Assembly: GCA_018873225.1 (NCBI GenBank)
Contig: JAEILZ010000009.1
Coordinates: 1,045,501 to 1,109,500 of the forward strand
Origin: [Phialemoniopsis] sp. UDSM-2020
Taxonomy: Eukaryota > Ascomycota > Sordariomycetes > Thyridiales > Thyridiaceae
DNA length: 64,000 nucleotides
Reading direction: 5' to 3'
Below are positions 14,097 through 60,584 of the stretch, one piece after another; position 1 is the stretch's first letter, and the number at the start of each line of letters is the position of its first letter. The notes beneath the pieces were generated by a model. It was not told where the DNA came from, searched no databases, and worked only from the letters and a program-made list of their open reading frames with translations. Both the position numbers and the translations under genes were made by a program.

Positions 14097-14232
14097 ACAC
14101 GTATGGTCTAGCGGTAAGCAGAGTCACTTCTCTGAAATTTGAAAACCACCAACTAACAACTCCCAGGTTAGGATCCTCGCCTTCCAAAGTGTCGCCCAGC
14201 GAGGGGCAGGGGTTCGACTCCCCTTACGTGTA
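14097..14232 (+). tRNA. tRNA-Gly (UCC) with anticodon-loop intron and D-loop insertion
   Basis: After removal of two interruptions the sequence folds as a full cloverleaf. The acceptor stem pairs 14097-14103 (ACACGTA) with 14225-14231 (TACGTGT), with A73 at 14232. The D-stem is GTCT/GGAT, the anticodon stem CTCGC/GCGAG with loop CTTCCAA (anticodon TCC at 14183-14185), and the T-arm AGGGG-TTCGACT-CCCCT forms a perfect B box. Interruption 1 is an 11-nt intron at 14187-14197, at the canonical position 37/38. Interruption 2 is a 53-bp insertion at 14114-14166 in the D-loop; without it the loop reads AGCGGTTA, as in normal tRNAs. The insertion begins GTAAGC, has CTAAC at 14153-14157 and ends CAG, exactly like a spliceosomal intron. 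A T13 run follows as a Pol III terminator. The A1-U72 pair is unusual for glycine tRNA. Confidence 0.85.
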
Positions 14233-14245
14233 TTTTTTTTTTTTT
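14233..14245 (+). terminator. RNA polymerase III terminator of the tRNA gene
   Basis: A run of 13 T residues starts directly after the discriminator base of the tRNA, as expected for Pol III termination. It supports the view that the tRNA gene is or was transcribed. Confidence 0.85.
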
Positions 14246-38328: not shown

Positions 38329-41300
38329 ATGCCGCCCCCTCAGCAGCAAAACCCATCCAGGGCGGACCGGACGGTGCCGATTCAAGCAAAATCGGGGCAA
38401 GTGGTGAGGGTTACAGACAAACTGGAGACACCTTCCCTCGACGACCGATCCTATAGGGTCATTCGCCTTCCAAACGAGCTCGAGGCACTGCTGGTCCATG
38501 ATGACGATACCGATAAAGCGAGTGCCTCACTTGATGTCAATGTCGGTAATTTCAGCGACGAAGTGGAGATGCCGGGTATGGCCCACGCTGTTGAGCATGT
38601 AAGTTGCAGACAACCTCTCCTCAATGGAAAATCTTGGCTTTCCATGCCGTGCGTGTCTTTGGTACTTACTGCGGATCATAGCTCTTATTCATGGGCACCA
38701 AGAAGTACCCAGAGGAAAATGCGTACTCACAGTACCTCTCCTCCAACTCTGGCAGCTCAAACGCCTACACGGCGGCCACCTCCACCAATTACTTCTTTGA
38801 TGTCTCTGGCAAGCCGCACGATGATGGGGACGCCTCAGCCGAGAACCCTTCGCCCCTGTACGGCGCGCTGGATCGATTTGCTCAATTTTTCATTGAGCCT
38901 CTGTTTCTTGCTTCGACACTGGATCGCGAGCTCCAGGCCGTCGACTCCGAGAACAAGAAGAACTTGCAGAGCGACCAGTGGCGATTACATCAATTAGAGA
39001 AGTCACTGTCAAGCCCCGATCACCCCTACTGTCACTTTTCTACAGGTAATCTGGATATCCTGAAAAATCAACCCGAGGCTCGTGGTATCAAGGTTAGGGA
39101 GAAGTTCATCGAGTTTTACGAGAAGCATTACTCGGCCAATCGAATGAAGCTCGTCGTCTTGGGAAGAGAGCCGCTCGACGTCCTCGAGGACTGGGTCGTT
39201 GAGCTATTCTCGGATGTCAAGAACAAGGGGCTCAAGCCCAACAGGTGGACAGAGGCAGTACCCTTCGGACCTGAGCAGTTGGGCATGCAATGGTTTGCCA
39301 AGCCAGTCATGGACTCGAGAGAACTTAATCTGTTCTTCCCCTTCCTGGATGAGGATGAGATGTATGAAGTACAGCCTAGTCGGTATATCAGCCATCTCAT
39401 CGGCCATGAAGGTCCTGGCAGTATTATGGCATACATCAAATCCAAAGGTTGGGCTAATGGTCTGAGTGCCGGTGCCTACCCGGTCTGTCCTGGCTCACCT
39501 GGCATTTTCGATTGCCAGATTCGCCTCACTGAAGAGGTATGCAAGCAGTACTACTACTCCTAAAAATAGGCCAAAGCTGACCTATGTGTACAGGGCTTGA
39601 AAAACTACCAGGAAGTCATCAAGGTGTTCTTTCAATACGTCTCTCTCCTACGAGAAGGACCACCGCAAGAGTGGATCTTTGAGGAGCAGAAGGGTATGGC
39701 CGAAGTCGATTTCAAGTTCAAGCAGAAGACGCCTGCGAGCCGATTCACAAGCAAGGTGTCGTCGGTGATGCAACGGCCATTTCCACGAGAGTGGCTTCTC
39801 AGTGGAAATAGTCGTCTACGGAAATTCGACGCAGAGCTCATTAAGCAAGGCATAGATTGCCTGCGTCCGGACAATTTCCGCATGTCCATCATATCCCAGG
39901 TATTCCCCGGAGACTGGGACCAGAAGGAGAAATGGTACGGAACGGAGTATAAATGCGAGAAGGTTCCGGATGCATTTATGAAAGAGCTCAAGGCGGCGCA
40001 CTCCATCTCCTCGAAGGACCGGATTCCCAACCTTCACTTGCCGCACAAGAATCAGTTTATTCCCACGAAATTGGAAGTCGAGAAGAAGGAAGTGAAGGAG
40101 CCAGCTGTTGCGCCTCGCATGATTCGCAACGACGAGCTGGCCCGGACTTGGTACAAGAAAGACGACACCTTCTGGGTCCCCAAAGCCAATCTGATCGTCA
40201 GCTTCAAGAGTCCTCTGATCTACGCATCGGCAGAAACCTCGGTTAAGGCCCGGATCTTCACCGATCTCGTCAGAGACGCTCTAGAAGAGTATTCGTATGA
40301 TGCGGACCTGGCGGGTATCAACTACAGCGTCTCGCTGGACAGTCGGGGTGTGACGGCAGAGGTATCTGGTTACAACGACAAGCTCCCTGTCCTTCTGGAG
40401 CAGGTTCTGATCACCATGCGAGACCTCGAGATCAAGTCAGATCGATTCGAAATCATCAAGGAGCGATTACATAGGAGCTATCGCAATTCTGCGTTCCAGC
40501 AGCCCTATCACCAACTTTACGATTATCTCGCTTGGCTTACCTCCGAGAACGATTATGTCGTGGAGGAGCTCGCAGCTGAGCTGCCCAATATATCCGTTGA
40601 GTCGACCAAAAGCTTCCACAAAGAGCTTCTCTCACAGTTGCACATGGAGGTCTATGTTCACGGCAATCTGTACAAGGAAGACGCCCTTACCCTTACGGAC
40701 ATGATCGAGTCGACTTTGAAGCCGCGTCCTTTGCCCCGACCTCAGTGGCCCATCTTCCGCTCCCTCATCTATCCCCCTGGGAGCAACTTCATCTATAAGA
40801 AAGATTTGGAGGACCCTGCCAATGTTAACCATGCAATCGAGATGCTGCTTCACATTGGTGACAAGGCGGATCGACTGCTCCGTGCCAAGACCCTGCTCCT
40901 AGATCAGTTCATCCACGAGCCCGCCTTTGACCAGCTGCGGACGAAGGAGCAGCTTGGTTATGTCGTCTTCTCTGGTTATCGGGGAACTCTGACTACAGTG
41001 GGCTTCCGATTTATCATACAGAGCGAGAAGAACCCCAAATATCTCGAAACTCGCATCGAGACCTTCTTGACGAACTATGCCGACACACTGGCGAACATGA
41101 GCGAGGCTGACTTTGAGAGTCACAAGAGGAGCCTGATGGTCAAGAGATTGGAAAAAGTTAAGAATCTCGACCAGGAGACTGGCAGGCATTGGACTCAGAT
41201 CTATAATGAGTACTATGATTTCAATTTTGGTAAGCCCCTCAACCTCTTGAGAAGCCCCTATCCTAGTGAAACTAGTACTGACCTATTCCCAAGCCCGCGA

Positions 41301-58841: not shown

Positions 58842-60584
58842 TTACTGCTCAAGGAACTCGCCGCCCAACCACCGGTTGAAGAAGTCGAGCGAGTTCTCGG
58901 GCTGGTCATAGGGGACCATGTGGCCGGCATCGTAGATGCGCATAAAGGTGAAGTTGCCGCTGGCCTTGACCTTGCCGTACTCCTTCCTCTTCTTGTCGCC
59001 GCTGGCGGCAGAGGAGCCAGAGGCAAGGAGCAGATCCTTGACCTCGGCGTCGTTGAAGGCCTTCTTGCCCTTCCACTCCAGAGCCTCGGTCCAGGCCTGG
59101 TTGCCGAGCCAGTTGCAGATGTAGTCGGCGTCACCGGCGTAGATGAGGACGGGGATCTGCTCGAGCAGCTTGGGGACGAGGCGGTGGAAGGGCTGCATCC
59201 AGTCGCCCTGGAACAGGAAGTTGCGGTTGATGTCAAAGTTGCACGAGTCGTAAGAGTCGACCTCGGCCCCAAGAGCGTCCATGATGTCCTTGCGGTTCAG
59301 GTACTTGGAGATGTAGCCGAGTTGAGGATAGCAGAGGTTGCTGTTGTCCTTGCAAGGGCCGCGGATATCGTAGACGTTCATGCCAGTGCGCTGGTAGGGG
59401 CCGATAAGAGCGTTATTGCAGTAGATGGAGGCAGGGACGCAGGACCAGACGCTTCCAGACTCGTAGCAGTTGTTGATCATGGACTGGCAGCGAGGCAGAG
59501 CGTTGTCCATAGACTGGCACTCGGACTCGTCGAGGACGGCAGGCCAGCCGCCATCGCCGCAGGCCATGGGGCGGTAGTACTCGTACTGAGTGTAGCCGTC
59601 AGTCAGACCGTTGCCGATAAGGACGGACTGGAGGTTGATGTTGCGGTTCTTGTGCGACAGAATCTCCGAAGCGAAGACGGGAATGTAGTGGCCGGCATAC
59701 GACTCGCCAGCAATGTGGAAGTCCTGCTTGGCGTACTCGGGGAACTGGGTGAAGAAGAGGGTCAGGAGAGCGTAGACGTCCTTGCCAGCGGCAACGGTGT
59801 TGCTGACGGAGGAGCCAGAGTACGAGTAGCCGACGTTGACGGGCTGGTCGAGGAAGATGACGGAAGCGTTGCTGTTCCACGCGAAGGGGTTGAAGTCGAG
59901 CTTCTCCTTCTCGTTGACCCACGAGGGACCAAGCTCGAAGAAAAGACCGGTCAGAGACGAGCAGCCGGGGCCGCCGTTCAGCCAAAGAACCACGGGGTCG
60001 TTCTTGGGGTCGTTTCGCGACTCAAAGAACCCTGTTAAGATAAGAGTCAGCATACTTTGTCATTGGTAACTACATATCTGCAAAGAATAAGGCTTACAGT
60101 AGAAGAGATGCTTGTCCTCGGCCTCGTCATCAAGATAACCGCTGTACTGCTTGACCTTGTCGACGCCGAGCTTGGACGGGTCGACGGCCTTGGCGCGCAG
60201 GTTGTAGTTGTCGAGCTTGCCGCCGACCTTGCGGTGAGACTCGCCGTCCTCGCCCTGAACCCACATCTTCTGAACATCGGCGCCCTTGACGACATGGTCC
60301 CAGTGGGAGTCGGGGCGGCGAGTGTGCTTCTTAGGGCTGCTGAAGAAGGTGGTCTTGTCGCCGGCATCGGGGACCAGGAGCTTGACCTCATCCCAGAGGG
60401 CCTTGGCCTCGGAGGTCATGCCCTTCATAGCCTCCTCGAGAGACTTGAGGGCTTCATTGCCGCTGAGCTTGTCGGCAATGGGCTTGAGGGCCTCGAAGCT
60501 GTCCGACAGAACGTGCTGGGCGGGTTGATGGTTGAAGAGGGCGGTGGCGCTTCCCGCGAGGAGCGCTGATGTTGCGATCCTCAT
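58842..60584 (-). CDS. Vacuolar carboxypeptidase Y precursor
   Basis: Serine carboxypeptidase (S10) that removes C-terminal residues in the vacuole. Exons 60584-60098 and 60031-58842 give 558 aa; the intron is 66 bp and its removal yields [13 protein letters not shown]. The protein starts with a signal peptide ([17 protein letters not shown]), followed by a propeptide of about 110 aa and the mature enzyme. The catalytic triad is visible: Ser273 in GESYAGHY, Asp465 in [10 protein letters not shown] and His533 in DAGHMVP. The oxyanion-hole block [10 protein letters not shown] is intact, and paired cysteines agree with the family. High GC at third codon positions produces long antisense open frames, which are not genes. 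The start Met is fixed by the signal peptide. Confidence 0.96.

Follow-up and report, generated by a model that had tools for sequence, protein, structure and literature searches.

The window analysed here is a 64-kb stretch of contig C11, in a genome of 44,176,824 bases and 11 contigs. It carries a gene for tRNA-Gly(UCC) at 14097-14232, whose D-loop is interrupted by 53 bp with the look of a spliceosomal intron. The initial annotation had placed this insert at 14114-14166, and we reproduced the coordinates from the sequence, together with the GTAAGC start, the CTAAC motif, the CAG end and the 9 nt that separate CTAAC from the insert end. The additional, normal intron of 11 nt described at position 37/38 (14187-14197) is likewise present, and so is the run of 13 T. 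The gene is built as follows:

14097..14113, plus strand: exon 1 of tRNA-Gly(UCC), from the acceptor 5' strand to the D-loop, read directly from the sequence
14104..14114, plus strand: A box TGGTCTAGCGG, its final G being the first base of the insert, matched by eye to the consensus TRGYNNARNNG
14114..14166, plus strand: 53-nt spliceosomal-type intron in the D-loop, from the sequence and the ARAGORN reading after excision
14114..14119, plus strand: 5' splice site GTAAGC
14152..14157, plus strand: branch motif ACTAAC, with 10 nt from the branch A to the insert end
14164..14166, plus strand: 3' splice site CAG
14167..14186, plus strand: exon 2, from the remaining D-arm to A37, with the anticodon TCC at 14183-14185
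14187..14197, plus strand: ordinary 11-nt tRNA intron at 37/38, from the sequence and ARAGORN
14198..14232, plus strand: exon 3, with the anticodon 3' strand, T-arm, acceptor 3' strand and discriminator A
14211..14221, plus strand: B box GGTTCGACTCC, from a pattern search and the sequence
14233..14245, plus strand: T13, the presumed Pol III terminator

At default settings ARAGORN reports no gene here with the insert in place, and with introns allowed it misreads the uncut locus as tRNA-Gln(CTG); an Rfam scan of the 64-kb window gave no match at the gathering threshold. Once the insert is excised, the ARAGORN call becomes tRNA-Gly(TCC) and includes an intron of 11 nt, which bears out the earlier claim that excision restores a tRNA. 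The structure of the D-loop alone leaves the ends of the insert loose: four registers give an identical product, one of them being GT-AG, and 65 of 833 excisions reach an equal or better structure score, with seven slightly better and one of these seven also running from GT to AG. The register listed above is therefore partly our own choice.

At least 22 nuclear tRNA genes of this genome, the window gene among them, carry an extra insert of 48-72 nt, and none of these inserts lies at 37/38 (names and insert positions in tRNA numbering were assigned by eye). The D-loop is interrupted in the genes for Gly(UCC), Gly(CCC), five Lys(CUU), Arg(CCU), two Trp(CCA), Leu(CAG), Leu(CAA), Glu(UUC) and Glu(CUC). 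Other sites are 26/27 in Arg(CCG), 31/32 in Cys(GCA), 32/33 in a second Leu(CAA) (L063) and one Met(CAU), 34/35 in Ser(GCU), Gln(CUG) and one Met(CAU), and the variable loop in a second Gly(CCC). A 37/38 intron is additionally present in 17 of the 22 genes, as read by ARAGORN after excision. The genes came from tRNA matches of odd length, from B-box-plus-terminator patterns, which were examined in part, and from one Trp pattern, where they were chosen by eye among 55 rows; places matching the B-box patterns were picked by eye for tRNA-like ends, and the total of interrupted genes is a lower bound.

The interrupted share is about 22 of 82 nuclear tRNA genes, the 82 being these 22, 45 from an RF00005 search that scored 63 of 930 candidates, and 15 from patterns that covered the T-stem types G52-C62 and A52-T62 only. 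The 45 are what is left of 49 nuclear rows, out of 64 RF00005 rows in all, after subtraction of four that belong to the 22; the other 15 rows were left out as they lie on contig C3 (28,924 bases), presumably the mitochondrial genome. For four of the 15 pattern-found genes (L082, L087, L090 and L095) what ARAGORN calls is odd or uncertain. L087 and L095 have CTTATA in the anticodon loop and an apparent T-T mismatch at 31-39, are called Tyr(ata) by ARAGORN and are perhaps tRNA-Ile(UAU). L064 and L101 are related tRNA-like elements which have A-box-like and B-box-like ends and are without a sensible anticodon arm. A further place, L122 (C6:3954836-3955140), has a B box and a terminator with ACTAAC...CAG upstream, and no acceptor partner was seen in it; it is maybe one more interrupted tRNA gene.

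The inserts are uniform in length (48-59 nt in 21 of 22, 72 nt in one) and in their signals. GT-AG or GC-AG ends were found in 21 of 22, with L096 having GC-AG, and all 22 contain CTRAY with 10-15 nt from the branch A to the 3' end. In 110,000 shuffled inserts such ends and the branch motif occurred together in 0.016%, and the branch motif alone in 3.4%. The exception in respect of ends is GT-GG in L063 (C1:2349002-2349340), the Leu(CAA) gene interrupted at 32/33, where GTGAGT and CTAAC are followed by an ATGG end; the splice site may be broken, or the intron may be of a GT-GG kind. In the fetched loci ARAGORN assigned 36 introns to 37/38, five doubtful parses (L052, L064, L087, L095 and L101) counted in; none of the 36 had GT-AG ends, two had CTRAY near the end and none had both. 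The insert in the Gly(UCC) gene had also been said to resemble introns of protein genes in the same window, and this holds, since those look alike (GTAAGT...ATAG, 83 nt; GTAAGC...GCTGAC...CAG, 66 nt). The introns compared are:

38599..38681, plus strand: intron 1 of an insulysin-like gene, GTAAGT...ATAG, 83 nt
41230..41293, plus strand: intron 2 of the same insulysin-like gene, GTAAGC...CTGAC...AAG, 64 nt, its ends set by eye where the frame changes and where a scripted intron search favoured other ends
60032..60097, minus strand: intron of a carboxypeptidase gene, GTAAGC...GCTGAC...CAG, 66 nt

The carboxypeptidase reading frame is 99% identical over 98% of its length to a protein of Thyridium curvatum, which makes a Thyridium (Sordariomycetes, Thyridiales) the probable source of the DNA. 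For the insulysin-like protein the best named match is 74%, and no Thyridium is named among the 120 matches listed.

Exactness of the exon joins was examined in two ways. Uninterrupted paralogues are aligned without gaps, in local alignments, to the joined exons of Leu(CAG) (42 of 43 positions, L058), Ser(GCU) (31 of 31, L052), Gln(CUG) (47 of 50, L030) and Cys(GCA) (30 of 31, L017; 28 of 29, L025). As these paralogues fix the ends of the inserts, the ends are not a matter of choice in four genes. ARAGORN, for its part, gave the assigned isotype for 21 of 22 genes after excision versus 0 of 22 uncut, the exception being L121, whose excised form is called Met(cat) rather than Leu(CAA).

The structure score of alternative excisions is a weak test. 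Few excisions score as well for inserts of the anticodon arm (5 of 850 in Cys, 6 of 646 in Gln and 2 of 1275 in L063), and 33-65 per gene score equally well or better for inserts of the D-loop, so that structure alone leaves D-loop ends unfixed. Better-scoring excisions number 38 of 1173 for Met-CAU_a and 14 of 1224 for Met-CAU_b, and besides those of Gly-UCC slightly better ones were seen for Leu-CAG (5), Leu-CAA_a (4) and Arg-CCG (1), the last having been scored with a 3' end one base too long. In Ser-GCU 472 of 1207 excisions are equal or better and the score is identical with and without the insert; it does not discriminate there because the parser merges both inserts into one 37/38 intron. 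The range of excisions tried for Gly-CCC_b fell short of the true excision.

A second Gly(UCC) gene was sought throughout the genome. The pattern CTTCCA-N14-44-GGTTCRANYCC occurs at four places, and the wider pattern TTCCA-N14-44-GTTCRANYC-N11-A at 35, of which two, the window gene and L033, have all five T-stem pairs (five more with four of five pairs were left aside). L033 is a tRNA-Gly(GCC), and ARAGORN gives no tRNA for L032 or L035; the three were rejected as Gly(UCC) copies. The joined 72-nt Gly(UCC) sequence matched the window gene only. Within these pattern and sequence searches there is no other Gly(UCC) gene, with the limit that the patterns could miss Gly(UCC) or Trp copies whose B box is unusual or whose 37/38 intron exceeds about 30 nt. 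The codons GGA and TGG are used 36 and 52 times among 3694 codons in six reading-frame stretches of the window. L033 itself (also recorded as L080, C11:947900-948300) has a 62-nt 37/38 intron with near-copies of ACAGTTCT, and L097 resembles a decayed relative of it.

Other isoacceptors are in a similar position. Both intact Trp(CCA) genes found carry an insert, and the insert-free Trp copy L088 has, by eye, mismatches in the D-stem, acceptor and T-stem. An insert is present in all five complete Lys(CUU) genes found, L108 being a Lys 3' part only, and in both non-initiator Met(CAU) genes found. The sole Met gene found without an insert is L011, which looks like the initiator. No intact uninterrupted gene for Gly(UCC), Trp(CCA), Lys(CUU) or non-initiator Met came out of the genome searches made.

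Comparison of paralogues shows how the parts of these genes have been kept, the chance level for pairwise identity being 0.48 for random 56-mers. Lys b and c are identical in the gene (18 + 55 bases); their inserts agree at 47 of 59 positions, their upstream flanks at 54 of 88 and their downstream flanks at 40 of 82. Lys d and e agree at 18 of 18 positions in exon 1, 50 of 61 in the insert, 100 of 115 in the remaining gene with its long 37/38 intron, 53 of 100 upstream and 47 of 63 downstream. In Trp a and b the insert is near the random level (34 of 61) and exon 1 has 17 of 20 positions alike, with the site and the signals kept. The initial annotation had pointed to other intact Gly(UCC) copies and to degeneration of the locus in relatives as marks of a dead gene; no such copy was found by patterns or by the joined-sequence query, the gene of this genome is not degenerate, and in the compared paralogue pairs exons are kept better than inserts.

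Introns of the same type are present in a further gene of the Pol III class. The U6 gene of L103 (C9:708900-709300), which has the most regular core of the U6 copies, contains three spliceosomal-type introns, and its four exons give an RNA of 95 nt, whose core is GATACAGAGAAGATTAGCATGGCCCCTGCACTAAGGATGACACGC. Intron lengths are 55, 58 and 57 nt; the introns start with GTAAGA, GTGAGT and GTAAGC, hold in the same order ACTAAC, ACTGAC and ACTTAT, and end with AG. One of them interrupts ATAC|AGAGA, and the third contains the B-box-like GTTCGATTCC. The joined exons contain GATACAGAGAAGATTAGCATGGCCCC, at which the intronless copies L038 and L039 are substituted; these two, which agree with it in 82 of 106 and 74 of 102 columns of the alignment, have an altered core and may be pseudogenes.

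Three of the tRNA inserts (L066, L106 and L118) contain TTTT, which might act as a weak stop for Pol III. Depletion of T-runs is absent from the 22 inserts, where runs of at least four T occur 3 times versus 2.99 expected and runs of at least five T 0 times versus 0.70; since there is no depletion, T-runs neither support nor exclude Pol III. Also noted was a dispersed repeat, roughly 200 bp long (L075, L076, L081, L086, L089 and L098), with a B-box-like GGTTCGATYCC, a T-run and a TTATA further upstream; it is perhaps an unknown Pol III RNA or a SINE.

Judged from sequence evidence, the insert in the Gly(UCC) gene is very likely a U2-type spliceosomal intron of the ordinary kind; the gene would be functional and transcribed by Pol III, with the spliceosome removing the insert. 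Of the two possibilities raised in the initial annotation, damage to the gene and removal of the insert from a Pol III transcript by the spliceosome, the latter is strongly favoured, 21 further tRNA genes sharing the same anatomy. Pol III would read the gene from its A and B boxes to T13. The spliceosome would then recognise GTAAGC, the ACTAAC branch and CAG, and join G14113 to G14167, as we infer from the signals and from the exon joins. The 11-nt intron at 37/38 would be removed by the tRNA splicing endonuclease and a ligase. Most or all of the 21 other interrupted tRNA genes, and the three-intron U6, would be handled likewise, and a repeated entry of U2-type introns into Pol III genes is the most economical account.

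It is improbable that the interrupted genes are instead dead, that is, that random insertions or captured introns lie in pseudogenes and that the tRNAs are supplied by other intact genes. An interrupted D-arm should spoil the folding of a tRNA, uninterrupted paralogues exist for Leu(CAG), Ser(GCU), Gln(CUG), Cys(GCA) and Glu(CUC), the L063 insert ends in GG, and according to the available portion of a review most eukaryotic genes that have odd introns are supposed to be pseudogenes (PMC4090602). Against this stand the recovery of the assigned tRNA by ARAGORN in 21 of the 22 genes after excision, L063 being doubtful for its GG end, the failure of the searches made to find intact uninterrupted genes for four of the specificities, the identical exons of Lys b and c beside inserts and flanks that drift, and the splice signals that diverged inserts still keep. 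A single dead gene was rejected on the recurrence across 22 genes.

We consider it highly unlikely that a relaxed tRNA splicing endonuclease cuts the inserts at bulge-helix-bulge motifs. Introns that are cut in this way are not known to need spliceosomal ends or a branch motif, but the former are found in 21 and the latter in 22 of the 22 inserts, and the fetched 37/38 introns lack such ends altogether. In a crude test for the central helix, all four pairs were found in 1 of 22 and three pairs in 7 of 22, both above the 1.5% and 12% of shuffles; with relaxed offsets the equally crude count of full helices was 3 of 22 versus 12.7% expected, which is no excess. What speaks for this mechanism besides is that archaea, Cyanidioschyzon merolae and nucleomorphs have introns of this kind at odd positions, as described in the portions of PMC4090602 and PMC3978253 that were available. 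There is also very little probability that a mobile introner family has spread copies into the tRNA genes. The high density of the inserts and their narrow range of lengths would fit such a family, but strong local matches among the 22 inserts are limited to Lys d/e and Lys b/c, then Lys a/b, with every other pair scoring at most 10, and a query of the genome with the whole gene as DNA gave no second copy of the Gly insert.

With the inserts read as spliceosomal introns, the same processing in the other genes and in U6 would make several indispensable tRNAs dependent on the spliceosome. The cell probably needs its mRNA-splicing machine for essential tRNAs, contrary to what reviews hold, as far as gene sequences can tell. 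We think it likely that the spliceosome is obligatory for tRNA-Trp, elongator tRNA-Met, Gly(UCC) and Lys(CUU), would act beside the endonuclease in many genes, and that the three-intron U6 closes the loop. If this is true, the loop would consist of a spliceosome that makes its own catalytic RNA as well as the tRNAs for translation. Such genes are easily missed or misnamed in annotation, as the absence of any correct ARAGORN call on uncut genes illustrates, and if they are real, a class of essential tRNA genes has been hidden from it. A coupling of splicing and translation would then be open to direct test, and the genes would offer a system in which one could study the way introns come into non-coding genes and ask if the spliceosome can be fed by Pol III transcripts.

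Introns of mRNA type in fungal U6 and U3 are already known, and for tRNA genes we found none reported in a literature search of partial coverage; with such coverage a report elsewhere is possible. Term searches found no 'spliceosom' in the text of a review of tRNA introns (PMC4090602), and neither tRNA nor introns mentioned in the text of the closest genome paper (PMC6658679). In archaea, C. merolae and nucleomorphs, introns of the D-arm, anticodon arm and variable region sometimes occur together with one at 37/38, as they do here (available portions of PMC4090602 and PMC3978253). Those introns are tied, in the same portions, to bulge-helix-bulge motifs and the tRNA endonuclease, whereas the inserts described here have spliceosomal signals. 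The canonical 37/38 introns which accompany them in most of the interrupted genes differ in being without GT-AG, at another position and the substrate of another enzyme. The inserts are of the same type as the introns of fungal U3 snoRNA, for which the available portion of PMC5832005 gives an RCTRAY branch, 6-36 nt to the acceptor and nearly always GT-AG ends, with one GC-AG and one GC-GG; U3 introns, however, have a mean of 92 nt and lie nearly all in the 5'-most stem-loop, in contrast to inserts of 48-72 nt in tRNAs. U6 of fission yeast and other fungi likewise has an mRNA-type intron within a Pol III gene, and reverse splicing has been proposed as the origin of the one in fission yeast (available portion of PMC10484740). 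The introns of fungal U6 split a spliceosomal RNA, whereas those described here split tRNA genes, at several positions and often in addition to a 37/38 intron.
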